64,000 bases of DNA from Mesaphorura yosii (lineage: Eukaryota > Arthropoda > Collembola > Poduromorpha > Tullbergiidae): assembly GCA_009869945.1 (NCBI GenBank), contig WIXG01000032.1, forward strand, positions 186,001 through 250,000, in the 5' to 3' direction. The notes under the pieces were generated by a model. That model made no database searches and was not told where the DNA came from. It was given only the letters and a program-made list of their open reading frames with translations. The translations under genes were made by a program, and so were the position numbers. This document shows positions 7,307 through 42,797 of the stretch, piece by piece (positions within the stretch are counted from its first letter, which is position 1; the number at the start of each line of letters is the position of its first letter).

Positions 7307-10300
7307 ATGTGCCTCCGCAACAGCAAGCATTTTTCACAACTATTTTATACTCTCGTCCTTTCTTACTGTTTCTGTTCCGTAACCAAAAGCACAGAATTTG
7401 CAAATTCTTCTCGGGAATTTAGCTCGGGCAACGCGACGCTATCGTCCAATTCAAACTCGGCGGCATTTGACTTGTTCAGCGGCGAGGATGATCCCTTCTG
7501 GCGTTATGGCGAAGGAGGTGGACCCGATTTCGGTCGTCGTCCGACTTTAGTCTCAAGTGGGAACGGGACAAGAATCGTCGTGTGGAGTGGCGAGGGGCCG
7601 GAGAAGGAAATGTACGGGAAACAAATTATATTTGGAGATGGCAGCAGCAGAAAAGGATGGGGCTCTCGAGGTGGGTGGTCCGGTGGAGGCAGCGGTGGTG
7701 GCGGGTGGCGAGGAGGTGGCGGTGGCAGGGGTCAGGAAAAGGGCGATGGTGGCAAGGGCAAAGGCAAAGGCAAAGGAGGATGGGCAGGTGAAGACATGCC
7801 ATGGCATCGATTCGGATGGGAATCTAAACTGATGCTCTGTGGACTTTTATTGTTCGTATTCTTCTTTCAGAGGGTGGTGAAAATGGTGGTGGCGGTGGAT
7901 ACGTCGGACTCGCTGGCAAAGGGCCTTCTCCAAAGCCTCCAGCTCTGCCCATTCCCGTGGAGCCATCGGCCCCCGTCGTGTTTTGCTCGCAGAAGGACAA
8001 ATGCTTCCATTTTGTGCACTGTGCCAGTCACCTGCAGAAGTACTTGAAGGAGAAGGAGCGGTGCTGTCAAATAACGTACGAGGTACGCAAGCTCAAACTG
8101 CAAGCTTTTAGCACGTTTCCATTCATTTTGTCTCAACCTCTGCCGTTCTCTAGGCCAAAGGAATGTGCTGCATTGGCCTCCCGAGCGGCCCTTCGCTGAC
8201 GGAATACGAAGACGACGACCAAACGGAGCCTGTTGGCAACCATTTTCGCCCATACTCGACGGCGGTTGTGAAGATTCATCCCATCTCAGCCGAGTCTCTG
8301 CAGTACGTCGCCGACAAGGCGTACGAGTACAAGGAAACGTACTTCGACATTGAGACACAAATCCTGGAGCAGGGGCTCATCGTGAAAGAGGGCACCTCGG
8401 CGTACGGACACCTGCAGTTTTTCCAGGTATGACTCGAAGAAGACTAAGACGAGGTACGTCGTGGCTGAGCATCAGTCAATAAACGCGATACGCGATACTC
8501 GAGCCATGCCGCTCGAGCAGGAAGTGACTTTCACGTGTGGCCAATTGATTGATTTGGTTGTGGTACTCAGATGAATGAATCAAGTGAATGCTAATTTTTT
8601 GCCGCCTATGCTCTTTCGACCGCAGACGACGCCAGCCATCTTGAATATCGGCGTGCAAAATGTCCTTGTGCTGAAGGCCACGGGACACTTGCAAGACAAG
8701 TAAATGAACGAAACCATTAACAACACGTTGCTCGCTGTCGCTGTGCGTGCAAGTTATAGGCGAGTCATTAATATTTGCTAAATTTGCTTAGGTTCTTCTT
8801 AACGCCGGCCCAAGCTGGCATCGGGCTCCAGGCGTACGGATTCATGCACACCGTCCTTGGAAGCACGTGCCCTCCGTCTCCGACTTGCAACGAATACGCG
8901 AGGAAGTATCGGACAGCGGACGGCTCGTGCAACAATTTCAATACGCCTAAACTTGGACAAAGCGGAACTCCACTCCTGCGGCTGCTGCCTCCCGACTACG
9001 CAGACGGTACGAACTACGAATCATATCTCAAACTTTGTGCCAACAAAAATATAGCGGCCAAATGTGTAACTTAGGAATTTGGAGCCCCAGAGTTCGCCGA
9101 GATGGTGGGGCACTTCCATCGCCTCGTTATATCAGTCGGAATCTGGTGCCAGACATGGACATTCCTGATTTGCGATACTCCCACCTTCTCATGCAGTTCG
9201 GACAGGTGGCTAGCAGCTTTTCTTAATTGTTACGTCAGTTTACAATTCGTTGTCATTTCAATTTTGTGTTCAACTGCAGTTTGTTGATCACGACCTGACC
9301 CACGTGCCAATCTTTCGTCTCCGCGACCTCAGTGGCATCGATTGCTGCGGCGGCGCGGATGGAGGCGGCAGCGGCAACAAAGGTGGTGGGGGCGGAGGTG
9401 GGTACGGAAGGAAGAAGAGATCCACAAAAGCCAAGCAGAGCCATCGCCGGCGGCACTACGAGGAAGACGAGGACGGCGAGGAGGGACAGATTCTTCAACA
9501 CCCTGCTTGCTTCCCAATTCCTCTCGACCCGAATGATCCGAAATTCGGAGGAAAAACTTGTATGAATTTTGTGAGGTCACTCGTAGCGCCCCGACTGGAG
9601 TGCACATTTGGACACGCCGATCAGGTTGGGAGTTAGAATTTTTGATTGTGGTCAAAAGTGCAATATTTTGGTTTAATTTTCAGCTGAACCAAGTCACGCA
9701 CTGGCTGGACGGTTCCCAAATATACGGAAGCACCTACGACAAGATGGAGCAGCTTCGAGCGTTCGAGTACGGCCTGCTTCGCGTGACCCGGGATCCCAAC
9801 GGAAGGCAGCTGCTGCCGGTGGATCTCCAGGACACTGAAGACTGTGTTGGCAGCAGCAAAAGCAGTGGAGGCGCTGGGCTCCATTGCTTTGTGGCCGGAG
9901 ATCGTCGAGTGAACGAGCAGGTTGCACTGACAACTGTTCACACGATCTGGACACGAGAGCACAATCGGATTGCCACCGAGCTCCGTTTCCTGCACGGGGA
10001 CTGGGACGACGAAATTCTTTACCAGGAAACTCGGAGGATTGTGATTGCAGAGTACCAGCATATCATCTACAATGAGTGGCTGCCTATCGTCATCGGGCGC
10101 AAGTACATGCAAGTGTTTAACATTTTGCCCTACGCTGAAGGCTACTACACCGCCCACGACGTGATCACCGACCCCACAGTTTCAAATGCGTTCGCGACCG
10201 CCGCCTTCCGCCTGCACACGCTGGTGTCGGGCTGGTTTGAGTAAGTCTCGCAGCTTAATTGGTCACGGCCGCCACGAATTAGAAAATTCTCAACCCTTAT

Positions 10301-11262
10301 ACTCTTTATGGGTCACACTTTGTTTAGTTTAAACGACGAAAACACAAATACTGTCAGTCGGCTTCCCATTCGAGACTTCTTCAACAACCCCCACATTCTG
10401 AGGGAGCCCGGAACGATCGATGGACTCGCCAAAGGATTACTCACGCAGCCCATTCAGAGATTCGATCCTTACGTGACGACTGAGGTGAGACTATCTGTCT
10501 GTTGTATCCTGCTTTCGTGCTATTCGTGCTCACTGAACTCAGTTTCTGGTTTCTCCAGCTTCGGGACCACTTATTTGAGACTGGCACGCACGACGGGATC
10601 GGCATGGACTTGGTCGCCCTGAACATTCAGCGAGGCAGGGATCACGGACTGCCCAGCTACAACGAATACCGCGACCTGTGCCGGCTGGGCAAAGCACGCA
10701 GTTTCGCCGAACTGGCCCCCATCATACCCTTCTACAAGACGGAGCACTTGCAGAAGATTTACGCGAGTGTGGACGACATCGACCTGTTCATTGGAGGGAT
10801 TCATGAGTCGCCGGTGGAAGGGGCTCTGGTGGGGCCAACGTTCCTGTGTATCATTGGAGATCAGTTTGCCAGGCTGAAAAAGAGCGATCGATACTTTTAC
10901 GACGTTGGAGGAACACCGCATTCCTTTACGAAAGGTATCTGGGTTTCGACATTCTTTTATGGCACGGAATATGATTCTAACTGGTTTTGCCCACACAGCG
11001 CAAATGTACACAATTCGTCGAGTGAGCATGTCTCGGATCATCTGTGACAATACCGAAGAGATTCGATCGATTCAACCGCTCGCGTTTCACCTTCCCAACA
11101 ACGGCTAGTAAGTCAAATAACACCAGACTCTGAAATATCTTCACATGTGTTTAATATGTTTAGCTAATTCGGTGTCGCTGCATTTAATTATATTCTAGCA
11201 ACCCAATTTTCCCTTGCGGAAGTCCGTCCATTCCAAGACTCGATTTGTCTGCGTGGGCATAA
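7307..11262 (+). CDS. Secreted animal haem peroxidase (peroxinectin/chorion-peroxidase-like) with Gly-rich insertions
   Basis: Twelve exons: 7307-7787, 7871-8082, 8154-8426, 8626-8699, 8792-9006, 9075-9205, 9280-9624, 9684-10240, 10328-10484, 10559-10934, 10999-11107 and 11199-11262. They give 997 residues. A signal peptide (hydrophobic core about 11-24) is followed by a Gly-rich stretch, roughly residues 103-170, with a KGD at 145-147. A Cys-rich pro-region comes next, then the peroxidase domain. Domain landmarks are YRTADGSCNN, DHD with distal His466 and haem-linking Asp465, the HTIWTREHNR motif, proximal His755 in FRLHTLVSG, and NIQRGRDHG. A second insertion of about 50 residues follows DCC484-485. 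It is poly-Gly, then RKKR (506-509), a basic run and an acidic run. It sits where myeloperoxidase is clipped into light and heavy chains. Likely role: extracellular peroxidase in defence, cell adhesion or matrix cross-linking. Confidence 0.93.
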
Positions 11263-11620: not shown

Positions 11621-12312
11621 TTAGCTGCCTCGATACGTGGAGTAGCCATACGGGCTGAGCAGCAGCGGCACGTGGTAGTGCTGTCTTGGATTGGTGATTT
11701 CAAACACGATTTCCACGAAGGGGTAGAATGTGACTGTGCGGAGCCCCTCAAAGTAGCCTTTTGTGTCAAAGTAAAACTTGTAGATGCCCGGCGTGAATTC
11801 AGCGTCTGCCAACAAGTTATTCAAGCGGCCGTCGTGGTCAGTGTGTCTGTCGAAATAACCAATAAGCTTGATTAGACTTCACCCCTGTCATTAACTGCTT
11901 AACTTTAAATTCCAACTTTCGGAAGCCTCACCTCTCCAGAATCTGCGTCCATGTTTCGTTTGCTCCCATTCTGTACAGCACGCAGCGGACGTTCTTTGCT
12001 GGGAGGCCGAGGGTGGTGTCCAGAATGTGGGACGTCAGCGGATTGTTAACTTGGGCCATCGTCTGCAATACAAACAGAGGAAAGGCTGTTTAAATTCAAC
12101 CTGGTCAAAGTCGAAGTTGAAACCCCAGGAGGGAATTAGTCGAATTAGTACAGCAGCGCAGCGCAGCAAAGTATTACATTCCCGGTGGCGGACTCTGCAG
12201 ATTCGTCCACGTCTATTGCATTTGAGTCTTCGTGCTGATCACTCGGAGCAAGCTGAGATTTGTTAACGAACAATAGAAGAGCGAGTGACGCTAAACTCAA
12301 GGGAAACACCAT
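11621..12312 (-). CDS. URAH: 5-hydroxyisourate hydrolase (transthyretin-like) with an N-terminal secretory leader
   Basis: Minus-strand exons, 5' to 3': 12312-12178, 12062-11932 and 11846-11621. They give 163 residues. Exon 1 encodes a hydrophobic leader (LSLASLALLLFV) and an acidic linker. Exons 2-3 encode the whole enzyme: LTSHILDTTLGLPA with His57, HDGR with Arg96, HYHVPLLLSP with His147, and the diagnostic C-terminal STYRGS. These match the family's catalytic His, Arg, His and Ser. The YRGS ending separates HIU hydrolase from true transthyretin. The reaction is hydrolysis of 5-hydroxyisourate to OHCU, the second step of urate breakdown. Exon 2 begins ACG-ATG, so a leaderless product starting at Met47 is also possible from an alternative first exon. 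The gene is convergent with the peroxidase. Confidence 0.93.
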
Positions 12313-19013: not shown

Positions 19014-22000
19014 ATGGTTCGACAGGTCGAGCCCGAAATGTCTCACCACAGTGAAGAAGGCACGCTTATCGCTTCTTCAGACTCCTTCTGGGAACCTGGA
19101 AATTACAAACGGTAAGTATGACCATCAACGTCAGTGCAATCAAGCGGCCCTCACTTTTGTGGCATAACAAATAATGCAATGCCTTCGTTCCGATTTATTT
19201 CGTGCAGGACAACAAAGCGGATCGAGGACGGGTACAGACTATGCAATGACTTGATGACGCTCGTCCAGGAACGAGCAGACTTGGAGAAAACATACGCCCG
19301 GAGTCTAAAAACCTGGTCGAAGAAATGGGCAGAGAATATCGAGAGGGGCCCCGAGTACGGGACGACAGAGGCAGCTTGCAAAGGAGTGCTCGTGGAGGCG
19401 GACCGTCTCTGCGACCTGCACTCGACCATAAAGGAAGACCTCCAGAATGACGTGATTGGCCAGATTCGGGGCTGGCAGAAGGATAATTACCACAAGGTAA
19501 CGAATTAACGAAAGAAGATTACAAAGTGTCAAATGTGTATTAATTTATTAATCATGTGCTCATCACTCATGAATCGGACTAATTATTTGCATTTTTGCTT
19601 GCAGAACGTGATGAACTTGAAGGAGAAGAAAGAAATGGACGATTTATTCAAGAAGGCCCAAAAGCCATGGGCCAAATATCTGACAAAAGTGAACAAGGCA
19701 AAGGCGGATTATCACGCCGCGTGTAAAAACGAGAAGTCAGCCCTCAACCAGGAACGAAACGCCGAGAGCGACTCGTCGCTATCAGCCGATCAGGTAACGG
19801 GAATCGTTCCAGGCTCCGCACGCGCAGAATTCGCATCACGCCATTCGTTCGCCTTTAGAATTCACGTGCCAAGACTTGTTGACTTGTTTACGTCTCCTTC
19901 CCAATGCCACGTTCACCCTTTCAGTTAATAATCCGGTTCGATCAAAGAAGAAAGTGAATTTGAGGCAAGCCTTGCACACGCTCATAAAAGGAATCGGCCC
20001 AAATAAAGAACCACGTTCACGTTCAGAGCTCGTGTGGGATACGATTTTGGTGCGCCTTCGTGCAGTCAGCCGCTATGCACTAATATGAGTCACATTAATT
20101 CCTAATAACTTTTACTCACTGCCCTGCCTTAATTCTCGGTTGTGTAAGGTGATGATGGTGCAATATTTGAGATTAGTATCAACATGCGACTTGAACACCT
20201 GTAGAATTAAATATTTGAATGAACACCCAAATCCAATTTGTCATTTGCTCCTTTTGTATTTTAATGCGGCGACAGCAGACGACCTCCAATTCATCAAATG
20301 TGAGCCTGCGCCAATCGCCCAAATCTTTCCCAGAAAACTGCTGACACCTTCATTTCTTTAACATGACTAATTTTCCATGTGTTTTCAGGTAAAGAAAATG
20401 AAAGACAGGCTCGCGAAATGCAAAGAAGACGTTCAAAAGACAAGAATAAAGTACGAGGAAGCCCTCGCCGAAATTACGCAGTATAATCCCAAATATATCG
20501 AAGATATGCGGGAAGTCTTCGATAAGTGTCAAGAAATGGAAGCGAAGCGGCTGAAGTTTTTCAAGGAAGTCATGTTTTCGCTGCATAAATGCATCAATAT
20601 CGCCGAAAAGGAAAGGTACATTAGCCTTCTTAAATGCGTTGACATCGACACGTGTAGACGGAATCTTTTGTTGCTAATTCCTTACGACTGTTTTTGTTTT
20701 CCAATCTTTAGCTTACCTCCCATTTACGAGGAATTCCATCATACAATTAGCAACGCTGATCATATGAAGGACTTGAAGTGGTGGTCCAATAACCATGGAG
20801 TTAACATGGCCATGAACTGGCCCACGTTCGAGGTAAGTCATCCAGTGAACGGAGCGGTGGGACGCTGTGTTATGGGATAAGCTGAAGGGTTTTTCTGGTG
20901 CCCGGTCTTGTGTGCAAATATTCGCTTCGGATGTGCAATTCCACAATTAAACTGTAGGAAGCGTTAATTTCTTGTAGCAGCTTCGGCTTTGTGTGTTTCG
21001 CTTGTAAATGTTCAATGTCCGGGTTTGGGGCTTGTAGCACCTGCACCTGAAATACGTTTCAGGAAGTTGGCTTTCTTTGCTGGTGCTGTGCTGTTTGATT
21101 GCTTAGGGTTTGGCGTTTGTTTTCAAGAGCTTCATAAAGTACGCCTAATTTATTCTCAGTCTTCAAAATCTGGTCGTAGTAATAAAATCAATAGTTAGTC
21201 GTTAATGTGATGGTTCTAATTCGGTCAGGTAGTTTTTAATGGAAGCAATCCCTCTAAATAAGTGTAGCCCTGAGCTACTCTTGACAGCCTCCAGCTTCGT
21301 TCTTGGTATTGGTTCATACTCACAATATCACAGTGCACAGTTCCACTTGCTAACTTCTTTAAAGTTGCTCAAGTTGTTATTTGCAGTGTCGATCAGTTAC
21401 GTTCAAGTAATTTGTAATTTATGGCTGTTGGTGATTTGTAGCCATTTACTATACGTTAAACGTTATGTATCCATTCCACATTGGTTTCATTTGGTTTTCA
21501 TTTTTTATACTTTTGCCTTTTGATTTGTGATCGTAAAACGAAACTCGCAGGATTACTCTGAAGAGTTCCGAGATATAGCGAAACAAAGAGTGAAAGACGT
21601 TGGACCGGGAGGAATTACACTCTTGACGCAAAAATCAGTGTCCGATGACTTGCCAGTAAGAATCCTTATCATTCATTCTCTCATTCAATCATCCTATCGT
21701 TCAGACTCCACACTCCAGAGTTATTGAAAGTGCATGCGAATTTGCCTTGGCCGTTTCCTGCAAAAAATTATTATTGTGTTTTCGCTTGTGCATGACGGCG
21801 ACCTTCGTCGCGATTTGAATTAATTCCAAGCGCCCTGTACATAAAAGTTTTCTGTGTGTCGGCGGCTTTTGTTTGACTTGAACGCTTGCGTGATTTGAGA
21901 CATGAAAGGTCGGAGAACTGAATTTCATGACCATGGCCCGGTGGAAATCAGTCTCGATTTATTTAGGAAAGACATGGAATTGATCACAAAAAACCTAACA

Positions 22001-27500: not shown

Positions 27501-28848
27501 TTGTAGTGGTCATTATGTCGCAACAGCGAGATGAGTTGTATTCTGCCGTCAAAAAGCAGTGCCTTGTGAATAATTCCATTCCTTCACAAGTCATCTTGTC
27601 AAAAACCCTGTCCAACGAGAAACGAATGAGATCCATCATGCAGAAAGTAGTTTTGCAAATCAATTGCAAATTGGGAGGTGCGCTTTGGGGTCTGGAAATT
27701 CCAAAGGTAAGAAGAGGACACCTGAAAAACTTGGATTGGAGGATTTGACCACATAATGACAATAAAATGATATACTTGTTTTTAATCTGATACGTAGAGT
27801 CTAAAGATCATGTTTGTTGGAATTGACGCCTACCACGACCCGAAGAGGAAGAACAAAAGTGTCCTGGCGATGGTCGCAGGCATGGACAACGAATGCTCGG
27901 AGCATTTCAGCAAAATGGCTTTCCATTCTGCTGCCCACCAAGAAGGCAGCGCGGTGTTTGGTCCTCTATTCGAGCAATGCCTGAAGGCGTACTGTGAGGT
28001 AAGAATTTGCACTGCTGGCACTGTATACACAAGTATCTCAGCTCAAAAATATCAACCCTTAATATTCTCTTCCCAGAACCAAAGATGCTTACCCAGCCGA
28101 GTGATCGTATTCCGGGATGGTGTTGGTGACGGTCAAATGAGAGAACTCGAAGTGCAAGAAATCGAACCAATCAGGCTCATCTTGAAACATTATTACCCAG
28201 TAAAAGAGATGCCAAAGTTTTCCTTCATTGTTGTGCAGAAGAGAATCAACGAACGGATGTACAAGCCAGCGGGTGTAAGTGACAGACGCTGAGGAATACT
28301 TCCAGCAGAGCAGAGTATTCTGAGGCGAAATGAATGGTTTCTTTGTTGCAGGGAAGAAACATGGACAACCCGAGGCAGGGAACTGTCATCGATCACACCA
28401 TCACTCGCTTTCATAAGTACGACTTCTTTTTGATTTCACAACTCGTCCGACAGGTACGTCATTTTTCATTTGTTCTTAACTTTGATATTCGTTCAAAGTG
28501 CAAAAGTCCAAGTGTAGTCTCTTGTAAAATGCTGTAGGGAACTGTTGGTCCAACTCACTACACAGTTTTGGAGGATAGCAACGAGGAAAAGCCAGACTTG
28601 CTGCAGAAGTTTGCGTACGCGCTTACTTTCATGTACTACAATTGGCCAGGGACAATCCGAGTTCCGGCCGTTTGTCAGGTAAGACATTTCTTCGTGAGCC
28701 TTTGTAAATTGGTATCAATTATGAGTCAAACGCTGAAACGCTTCCTGTGTTCGAATTCCAGTATGCTCACAAACTCGCCTATTTGGTCGGACAACACTTG
28801 ATGGCGGCCCCGAAGTCAAATTCGGATACCAAACTCTTCTATCTGTAA
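24537..28848 (+). CDS. piwi: Piwi-clade Argonaute protein
   Basis: Nineteen exons joined by introns of 58-91 bases give 977 residues: 24537-24620, 24710-24814, 24897-25107, 25190-25349, 25419-25511, 25570-25768, 25843-26045, 26113-26226, 26302-26467, 26536-26640, 26709-26874, 26953-27134, 27210-27413, 27494-27706, 27798-27998, 28077-28274, 28352-28453, 28538-28678 and 28762-28848. The first five exons encode a disordered Gly/Pro/Gln-rich tail with RG clusters at 15-20, 49-55 and 141-148. Such clusters are typical sites of symmetric arginine methylation read by Tudor proteins. The N, PAZ (around ITFINYF), MID and PIWI domains follow. Slicer residues are visible: Asp745 in FVGIDAYHD, Asp816 in FRDGVGDGQ and His952 in YAHKLAYL. 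The enzyme is therefore expected to cleave RNA. Known role: piRNA-guided transposon silencing in the germline. The exon 4 donor is the least certain junction. Confidence 0.95.
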
Positions 28849-39379: not shown

Positions 39380-42300
39380 ATGCCCCGACGCGGCACGCGC
39401 ATTGGCCAAACGGAGCGCGCTTTCATCCGCCTCCTCCGCTTCTTCGCACAGGTCAAATGCGCCACCAGTTTCGGAACCATTCTCATCCTTATCATTGGCT
39501 TTGGGGTGTTTGGTGTCTACATTTTCTCAAAATCGTCGACACACCGTAAGTTACACATTCGGAGGCGCTGAAAAATAATACGCTTTCTGTCTGTTTCTTG
39601 CATGCAGTCCAGTGCGGCAAGAGAACGTTTAGGTGTCCGGAGGAGGAAAAGTGTGTCGGGTTCCGGTATCTTTGTGACGGGACTCATAATTGTCTGAGAG
39701 GAGCCGACGAGTTCGCCATCCACTGCAGTAGGATACATTCATATATTTATTCATTCTGCACGCACAGTAAATTAATAGCCCTCTTCATTTGCACTACTGC
39801 GTTCCAGGGGACTTGAGCAACCTGCAACAAATTTTTGGAAACGTCATGAACCTAGACGTTATCGCCACCAACTCGCAGCAAAAGCCCAAGATTAAGGTCA
39901 CAGTCGAAGGCGGCTCCTGCGGCAACTTTACAATTGACGAGGAGGTAGTCAGCTCAGATGGCTGCTTCTGCAAGCCAGAGTACGTCTTTTGCGAGGGGAA
40001 TAATTGGCCACCCACCTTCGAATGGAGCAACCTGCCCAACAACACCAAGCGCTTGTAAGCACAATAAAGAAACCTAACCAAACCACCTTAATTTAATTCT
40101 GTGGCTGATGACTGTGCCTGTGTTTCAGAGTGCTGAAACGGACTTTTACGCGAAATATGACCGTCTGGAAGCCGCAGACCATGACGCACTTCAACAACCT
40201 CCAAGTTCTGTGAGTTAAATACAAGTTAAAGCCCAAGCGTACGTGCATCCAGAATAGATGGAATGAAAAATGAATGTTTGATCAGAAAGATCGAGAATCA
40301 CCACAAGTATAAAAACTTCACCTGGAAATTCCTGCAAAATCGTGAAAACTTGGGAATTTTGTAAGAGCCCCGACAAGTCAGCCAAAAGCCAAAATTAGGC
40401 CATTGTATTTCATGTTGACATGAATACTTTTATTCATTCACTCCCAGCTACCTGACCCACAACGGGATCAGAGAACTGAAGGTAGACGACTTTGAGGGCA
40501 TGAAGCGGCTGCAGTGGCTGTTTCTCGGGAGTAATCTTCTCACGCACTTGAATCCCGATGCCATCAGCTACCTGCAGACGCTTCGACTGCTGGATGTGAC
40601 CAAGAATCATCTACGATTCAGCAACGAGTTTAGATTTCCAGCATTGGCCAACCTGAAGGAGCTGTAAGACTAAAGAGGGCGTGCGCGTGTGTATACATTT
40701 TGTGAGAATGAATGCTCTCTTCTGCTCTGCTCGCAGGTATTTACAAGGCAACAAGTTGGACACGATAAACGAGAATTTATTTGCGGATCTCCCGAGGCTT
40801 CAGTTTCTGTAAATATTCATAATAAAAATAGGCTGATTAATACTGAGCCAATTCGTCTTGCAATTGTATTTGCTAGAAACCTTGGCGACAACAACATTCA
40901 GATAATCCACAGCAAAACGTTCCAACACAACCCCTTCCTGATAGATTTGTAAGCAATGCGCTCTGCGTTCAGTAATTAATAGGTCAAGTCAAGGTCAAGA
41001 TCACGAAATGACTCGTGTCTATTCCATTTTTTTCCAGGGACCTCTCGAAAAACAAATTTCAGCAATTCGAGCCTGACCTGCTTGAAGGGCTGGATAACAT
41101 GACCAGGCTGATTCTGTACTCCAACCCAGTCACGTACCTCCCACCCGAACTGTTCCAGGACAAGGTTTTCATGCACTCTCTGTAAGCATCCATGAAATAA
41201 CATTCCACGTAACACATTACTGCACACTGGAGTCATTACAAACTCAAGACTACTCAATTGCAGGGATTTGACTGGCCTCGAGATCAAAAACGTGAACATG
41301 GAACTCTTTGCCGACCTCATTCGCTTGGAGTTTATGTAAGAATTTTATTTTATGCATTAAAAGCGCAGAGTTGCAGTAAAGTTAAGACACGATTCGATCA
41401 TTCGTTGTGTAGCTTCTTCAAGAAATTTGAGTACTGTCGCTATGTGCCCCGAGTCCCCAAGTGCTGGCCAAGCACAGACGGTAAGTTGGCATGACAGGTC
41501 GCAAAAGTCGCAGCAGTGCAGGTCGAGACGAGAATTCTAGGAATCGTGCTCTCAATTGTCTCTCTTCTAGGAATGTCATCTACAACAAACCTGTTGCAAG
41601 GCGAATACTTGCGCTACGCCGTCTGGATGTGTGGCGTGATGACCCTGATTGGCAACACCGTCCTGCTCACGAACCGCTGCTTCAAGCACCAGCCGTCTAA
41701 ATTCATTATTGATATTTTCGTGAATCATTTGGCAGGTGACGGCGGACGGAGCATGTGGAGGCATTTGTAATTTTTTTTATACTCAATGAGTATCTGATTT
41801 ACAGCCGCAGACGCGCTGATGGGGCTTTACTTTCTGACGCTGGCCATCAAGGACGTTGAATACCGGAACAAATACAGTGCGAATGCGTACTTGTGGAGCA
41901 CGTCCAGCCTGTGCACATTTGTGGGGAGCCTGGCGATGATCTCGCGAGAGGTCTCGCTCCTGATCCTGACCACCGTGAGCATGGAGCGCTACTTTGTAAT
42001 CACGGGTCCGTACTCGTATCAGCGGCTCACGAAGCGGTCGGCCGTCGGTGTCATGAGCGCCATTTGGGCGGCGGGGATCATCATCGGAATCGTGCCGATG
42101 ACGAGCGCGAGGCTGAAGCACTCTTTCTACGGGAGCTCGGGGCTCTGCTTCTCGCTCCACCTGAACGAACCGTTCGCATTCGGCTGGGAGTACAGCACCT
42201 TCGTGTTTGTGTTTGTCAACACGAGCTGCCTCATCTCCACGACGGGATTCTACGGCAAGCTGTTCTGGAAGATTAAGCGCACGCGGCTCTCGACTCCGAT

Positions 42301-42797
42301 CGAGATTGGCGAAACGAAGATGGCGACGCGAGTCTTTATGATGGTCATGATGGACTTCTTCTGCTGGGTGCCCATCATCTTCATTAAGCTCGCCACGCTC
42401 CAGGGATACGAAATTCAGCGTATGCGAAATGAATGAATGCATAATCATAATTTTTTAATGACAAGCAACTTTTAATAATTTTGTTATTTATTCATTTCCA
42501 TTTCGAATTCTTGCAGCCGACTTGCACGCGTGGGCCATCATCATCATTCTGCCCATCAACGCGGCCGTCAATCCACTCATCTACACGCTGTCATCGACCA
42601 AAGTGGGCACTCGCTTCATTCAGTTCTTCATCAAAGTCACGCATCTCGGTCGCTATCACTCGTACTACGATGCGACGCAGTTCACGGCGGCATCGGACGA
42701 CACGACAAAGTGGAGCATCACCGACTGGAAGTACGAAGACAGAGAAATTGAGCGAGACCCACCAAGCACGCCAGTATTCGACAGTATTGTGAAGTAA
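39380..42797 (+). CDS. Relaxin-receptor-like GPCR (type-C LGR: LDLa, LRRs, 7TM)
   Basis: Fourteen exons: 39380-39545, 39608-39727, 39808-40054, 40129-40209, 40286-40360, 40448-40663, 40737-40808, 40877-40948, 41038-41181, 41264-41335, 41413-41480, 41571-41735, 41805-42419 and 42517-42797. They give 797 residues. A basic N-terminus and a hydrophobic segment (about 28-49) are followed by one LDL-receptor class A module (Cys58 to Cys95, with LCDG and ADE). About ten leucine-rich repeats follow, then a Cys-containing cap. The LRR exons are 72, 75, 81, 144 or 216 bases, all joined in phase 2 at the repeat boundary, typical of LGR genes. The 7TM part is rhodopsin-like: ERY at the end of TM3 and NPLIY in TM7. 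The LDLa-plus-LRR layout is that of RXFP1/2 and insect LGR3/LGR4, receptors for relaxin-like peptides. N-terminal exons upstream cannot be excluded. Confidence 0.9.

Follow-up and report, generated by a model that had tools for sequence, protein, structure and literature searches.

A glycine-rich insertion with a candidate convertase site in the joining loop of a Mesaphorura yosii haem peroxidase

Myeloperoxidase, as described in excerpts of PMC5437232, is parted into a light and a heavy chain by a cut in which four to six residues (ASFVTG; A273 to at most G278) are lost immediately before V279-N280-C281. This cut is ascribed to cysteine proteases, and the N-terminal propeptide of proMPO is removed by a proconvertase. 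The excised hexapeptide is surface exposed. Each of the disulfides C281-C291 and C285-C309 is internal to the heavy chain, so the two chains of myeloperoxidase are not joined by them (PMC5437232). In peroxidasin, furin takes part in a cut near the C-terminus that releases a 143-residue C-terminal fragment; PXDNL has a predicted convertase site that stayed uncut in the cells tested, and its motif was cut once placed in peroxidasin, which indicates that context decides (excerpts of PMC8533639). Drosophila Dfurin1 and vertebrate furin have different preferences for the residues adjacent to the cut, so a predictor trained on vertebrate sites is only a guide (excerpts of PMC3014772). Gly-rich insertions inside the peroxidase domain are described for the PERCAL sequences, bacterial animal-type peroxidases with the calcium motif G-x-D-G-x(2)-[GN]-[TN]-x-D-D (excerpts of PMC3396595). 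The excerpt of a salmon-louse peroxidase paper contains nothing on processing, and in the two papers that contain both "heme peroxidase" and "furin cleavage site" the terms stood in unrelated places. Among the open-licence literature matches listed, we saw no report of a peroxidase loop such as the one described here.

The window, that is, the whole stretch of 64,000 nucleotides analysed here, contains a gene for such an enzyme. The gene model is as follows.

7307..11262, + strand: animal haem peroxidase gene, spliced model of 12 exons and 997 aa
7307-7787, 7871-8082, 8154-8426 and 8626-8699, + strand: exons 1-4
8792-9006, 9075-9205, 9280-9624 and 9684-10240, + strand: exons 5-8
10328-10484, 10559-10934, 10999-11107 and 11199-11262, + strand: exons 9-12

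All 11 introns are GT-AG and the 997 codons are open. Pfam family PF03098 matches aa 386-970 over its full profile (positions 1-530 of 530, E 3.3e-192), and no other domain was found in the modelled protein at E up to 1. The closest PDB relatives by phmmer are myeloperoxidase (best E 1.3e-93) and lactoperoxidase. By these matches, the predicted protein is an animal haem peroxidase of the peroxidase-cyclooxygenase superfamily. Alignment with both enzymes places H466 in DHD, R652 and E655 in GDRRVNEQ, and T582, D586 and S588 opposite the Ca2+-loop residues; we take these to be the distal His, the catalytic Arg, the haem-linking Glu and the Ca2+ loop, respectively. The proximal His, H755, is present, but the Gly that precedes it is not (FRLHT instead of FRxGHT; window 10206-10220, aa 752-756). 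The pattern R-x-G-H[ST] is found in all 80 bacterial relatives used (the best 80 of 207) and in 10 of the 11 paralogues with a readable motif, the exception being L123, which also has FRLHT; eight regions were unread. Its absence from the window protein may alter the proximal haem pocket.

Upstream of the peroxidase domain, at 7984-8171 (aa 199-237, exons 2-3), the cysteines follow C-x5-C-x5-C-x13-CC-x9-CC, an outline common to the paralogue L112 and reminiscent of a CLIP domain. A CLIP-like N-terminal domain was rejected as an assignment: the window segment has no Pfam match and L112 reaches E 0.23, under the curated cut-off. Elsewhere in the window, part of a HIUase/transthyretin-family gene lies directly downstream (11621-11878, − strand; PF00576, E 5.5e-27), followed by open frames with an F-BAR (FCH) domain (19122-19505, + strand), a Piwi domain (27798-28289, + strand; PF02171, E 8.1e-21) and a rhodopsin-family receptor (41798-42433, + strand). 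A tRNA scan and Rfam at the gathering threshold returned nothing over the whole window.

An earlier note on this DNA had placed a Gly-rich, furin-like insertion at 9280-9624, which is exactly exon 7 of the gene model, in frame. The features of this exon are listed here.

9280..9624, + strand: exon 7 (aa 463-577), with the distal-His segment, the insertion and the conserved PACFPI segment
9343..9348, + strand: Cys484-Cys485, equivalents of myeloperoxidase C281 (by alignment) and, putatively, C285
9349..9486, + strand: insertion stretch (aa 486-531), Gly-rich, then basic, then acidic
9409..9420, + strand: RKKR (aa 506-509), an RX[KR]R convertase-type motif followed by Ser-Thr; coordinates by codon count
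9508..9510, + strand: Cys539, equivalent of myeloperoxidase C291 (by alignment), probable partner of Cys484
9559..9561, + strand: Cys556, equivalent of myeloperoxidase C309 (by alignment), probable partner of Cys485

H466 (in DHDL) is followed by C484-C485, the insertion GGADGGGSGNKGGGGGGGYGRKKRSTKAKQSHRRRHYEEDEDGEEG (aa 486-531) and QILQHPACFPI, which agrees with the order that the earlier note had read from the letters, including RKKR at 506-509. Gly makes up 16 of the 46 residues, and the net charge is +9 over aa 506-521 and −7 over aa 521-531. The phmmer alignment with myeloperoxidase (5mfa_A) covers aa 349-484 and then aa 532-996, leaving a gap of 2 residues in the enzyme versus 47 in the window protein. 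The alignment thus breaks in the loop that connects the halves of the peroxidase domain, where the insertion had been said to lie. Its size had been put slightly too high, at about 50 extra residues; the excess is ~45 residues over myeloperoxidase and ~37 over the nearest paralogue.

The myeloperoxidase cut, as described in the excerpts, corresponds to the junction of aa 481 and 482 in the window protein, or to a point one to two residues before it, and the insertion starts about four residues past this cut. The claim that myeloperoxidase is cut in the same loop is therefore correct for the joining loop as a whole, but the myeloperoxidase cut precedes C281 and is ascribed to cysteine proteases (PMC5437232). 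By alignment, RKKR is inside the C281-C291-type disulfide loop, and topology suggests that C485 corresponds to C285. Chains cut at RKKR would thus stay joined by two disulfides, in line with the disulfide-linked halves that had been suggested.

We compared the loop with PDB entries, with paralogues of one genome and with bacterial relatives. The search of the genome (93.0 Mb in 1127 contigs) gave at least 83 exon-level family matches, the window gene's own included. The 19 other regions marked by these matches were fetched, and the loop was readable in 12 of them (L111-L117, L121-L124 and L128) and unreadable in seven (L118, L119, L120, L125, L126, L127 and L129). Counted from the last cysteine of the loop ahead of the stretch to the PxCFP cysteine, the spacing is 53 in the window protein (C485-C539) versus 5-16 in the 12 readable paralogues, none of which has RX[KR]R in the loop. 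Among the readable genes of this genome, the insertion is peculiar to the window gene. When the assembly was searched with the DNA of exon 7, the copy in the window was the only one found. The nearest paralogue, L112 (C15:4520-6433), is 50.2% identical over 510 core positions with the insertion left out (from collinear matches), or 51.5% over 575 by looser stitching. Its loop, GIECCSEGGRGFLPPNFRHPFCLPI, has the same GI[DE]CC ... HPxC[FL]PI context as the window protein but a spacing of only 16 and no RX[KR]R, and the Gly before its proximal His is kept.

Four of the fetched regions (L118, L119, L120 and L125, on contigs C888, C536, C593 and C725) are peroxidase-family genes with long open frames. 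The best-match frames span 364 to 1791 aa on C888, C536 and C593 and 257-810 on C725; the contigs are 17-42 kb, and the peroxidases on them are 31.5-33.5% identical to the window core (from collinear matches). L125 has a GC content of 60%, versus 46% in the window. Contamination and an unusual clade both stand as readings of these four regions.

A three-row profile matched 207 of 286 bacterial candidates, the best 80 of which were used. In 79 of these 80 the distance from DHD to DxSxYG is 57-70 (in the remaining one, L076, DHD is absent from the open frame), compared with 121 in the window protein and 82, 84 and 86 in three paralogues. RX[KR]R was found between the two motifs in none of the 79. 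A scan of bacteria with a single sequence found no relatives, and neither did two scans of viral contigs.

The sequence R506-K-K-R509 followed by S510 fits the convertase motif R-X-[KR]-R. R-K-K-R then Ser, with Gly-rich surroundings, is the arrangement usual for furin sites. The only other RX[KR]R in the protein is RVRR at 424, in the conserved core, with none before it. The context of RKKR is low in entropy and Gly-rich, and it lies beside the loop that is exposed in proMPO, according to the excerpts of PMC5437232. Four loci of the genome (C88, C144, C191 and C236) have P-domain and S8-peptidase (subtilisin-type) exons within ~3 kb on the same strand, and from this domain pairing among exon matches they look like kexin-type convertases. 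The proprotein-convertase site of the earlier note stands as a motif with Gly-rich surroundings in the joining loop, and cutting at it is a prediction. When the residues of the insertion were shuffled, RX[KR]R appeared in 7.6% of 20,000 shuffles; in shuffles of the whole protein it appeared at the place of the insertion in 1.9% of 5,000. RX[KR]R by itself is thus only moderately unlikely for a stretch of this composition, and it is the length of the insertion, judged by the distances from DHD to DxSxYG, that exceeds chance.

Could the stretch be an in-frame intron taken for an exon, or an assembly error? The insertion had been called constitutive, and its coding within a single exon is borne out by the gene model; the rest of that claim has its basis in splice scores rather than RNA. 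Donor and acceptor matrices were built from the gene's own 11 introns and are weak at 11 sites, with real acceptors scoring down to −3.2 when left out. Many in-frame removals are allowed by GT and AG dinucleotides, and the donor at 9398 inside exon 7 scores like real donors. However, the acceptors from 9364 to 9550 all have negative scores (−3.0 to −3.5 for 9382, 9435, 9440 and 9550, a range that the lowest real acceptors also reach), and the best-scoring in-frame pair, 9398-9586, would delete PACFPI as well. The stretch is also 66% GC, and only 8 of its 138 bases are T, whereas the 11 introns are 31-48% GC. A retained intron was rejected, as excision of the insertion alone is unsupported by the splice scores, with the caveat of the weak 11-site matrices, and we regard an artefact of either kind as very improbable.

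A nearly neutral expansion is a much more serious contender, which we hold to be plausible if tentative: GGN slippage and charged repeats would have lengthened a tolerant loop of a one-chain enzyme, with RKKR as a by-product of composition, as the 7.6% of insertion shuffles with the motif would allow. The insertion resembles a low-complexity tract born by slippage. It has weak tandem periodicity (period 12 at 9385-9408 and period 9 at 9458-9482), and loop length varies from 5 to 16 among the readable paralogues. The gene also has a second tract of this kind:

7640..7930, + strand: Gly/Lys-rich coding tract (~aa 112-181, exons 1-2), spanning the intron 7788-7870

This second tract, covered by a low-entropy stretch at aa 103-193, lacks RX[KR]R, which fits neutral low-complexity growth and counts against cutting. 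Repeat families D1 and D2 link it with the exon 7 tract, and the two share a 44-base match that is 70% identical and in the same codon frame (hand count). Among 1000 codon shuffles, 4 gave such a match; this test was picked after the match had been seen and is only suggestive. The simplest origin would be slippage of GGN-rich DNA, perhaps with copying from the tract of exons 1-2. Against neutral growth as the whole explanation, the basic and acidic runs form separate blocks that follow no simple repeat, and RX[KR]R sits in the very loop that is broken in a related enzyme. The other proposal of the earlier note was binding to matrix or microbial surfaces. A charged arm that stays uncut and attaches to these or to polyanions would make use of the same charges, +9 followed by −7, but the adjoining acidic block would partly neutralise the basic one, and we consider such an arm unlikely.

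We favour cutting of the loop linker after R509 by a furin/kexin-type convertase, with a probability of roughly 0.4. This reading draws on the place of the insertion in the joining loop, its unusual spacing, the absence of the motif from the 12 paralogue loops and the 79 bacterial relatives, the single other RX[KR]R in the protein and the four convertase-like loci, as well as on the exposure of the neighbouring myeloperoxidase hexapeptide and the precedent of peroxidasin and furin, both known from excerpts. The shuffles, the second tract and the uncut PXDNL (PMC8533639, excerpts) argue against it. A low-complexity expansion would have arisen by GGN-rich slippage in the surface loop between the halves of the peroxidase domain and, lying between cysteines of the C281-C291 type, would form an exposed, flexible linker. 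In the secretory pathway, a furin/kexin-type convertase would then cut after R509, giving a predicted N-terminal chain of ~51 kDa (counted from aa 29, sugars excluded; signal-peptide end by eye) and a C-terminal chain of ~55.5 kDa. These would be held together by C484-C539 and probably also by C485-C556.

It is possible, though we doubt it somewhat, that one paralogue of an expanded family evolved a two-chain enzyme independently, through a convertase site that grew within the loop disulfide. Under this two-chain reading, a protease of a different class would cut near the myeloperoxidase site and leave covalently joined chains with two long charged ends, a set of properties that we put forward with equal reserve. 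Were the loop cut, haem peroxidases would have reached the two-chain form convergently, and the gene would illustrate how a processing site can arise from a low-complexity expansion in an enzyme that is conserved otherwise. If it is uncut, it shows how much extra length the joining loop can take.

Among the described systems, the PERCAL sequences share with the window protein a Gly-rich insert within the peroxidase domain, but neither the calcium motif in its excerpted form nor the looser G-x-D-x(6)-[DE]-[DE] occurs in the window protein, which was searched throughout. Peroxidasin, also a haem peroxidase, undergoes maturation by a proprotein convertase (PMC8533639, excerpts) and is a precedent for the reading favoured here. 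It differs in carrying leucine-rich, Ig-like and vWF-like modules; PF03098 was the only Pfam match in the window protein at E up to 1. Myeloperoxidase belongs to the same family, is 38% identical from aa 532 of the window protein on, and is likewise parted in the joining loop, where the window protein has its candidate site. It is cut before C281 according to the excerpts, whereas the window motif lies between the equivalents of C281 and C291. At the position of Gln656 of the window protein (by alignment), lactoperoxidase also has Gln, and myeloperoxidase has the Met that, beside the Glu, links the haem.
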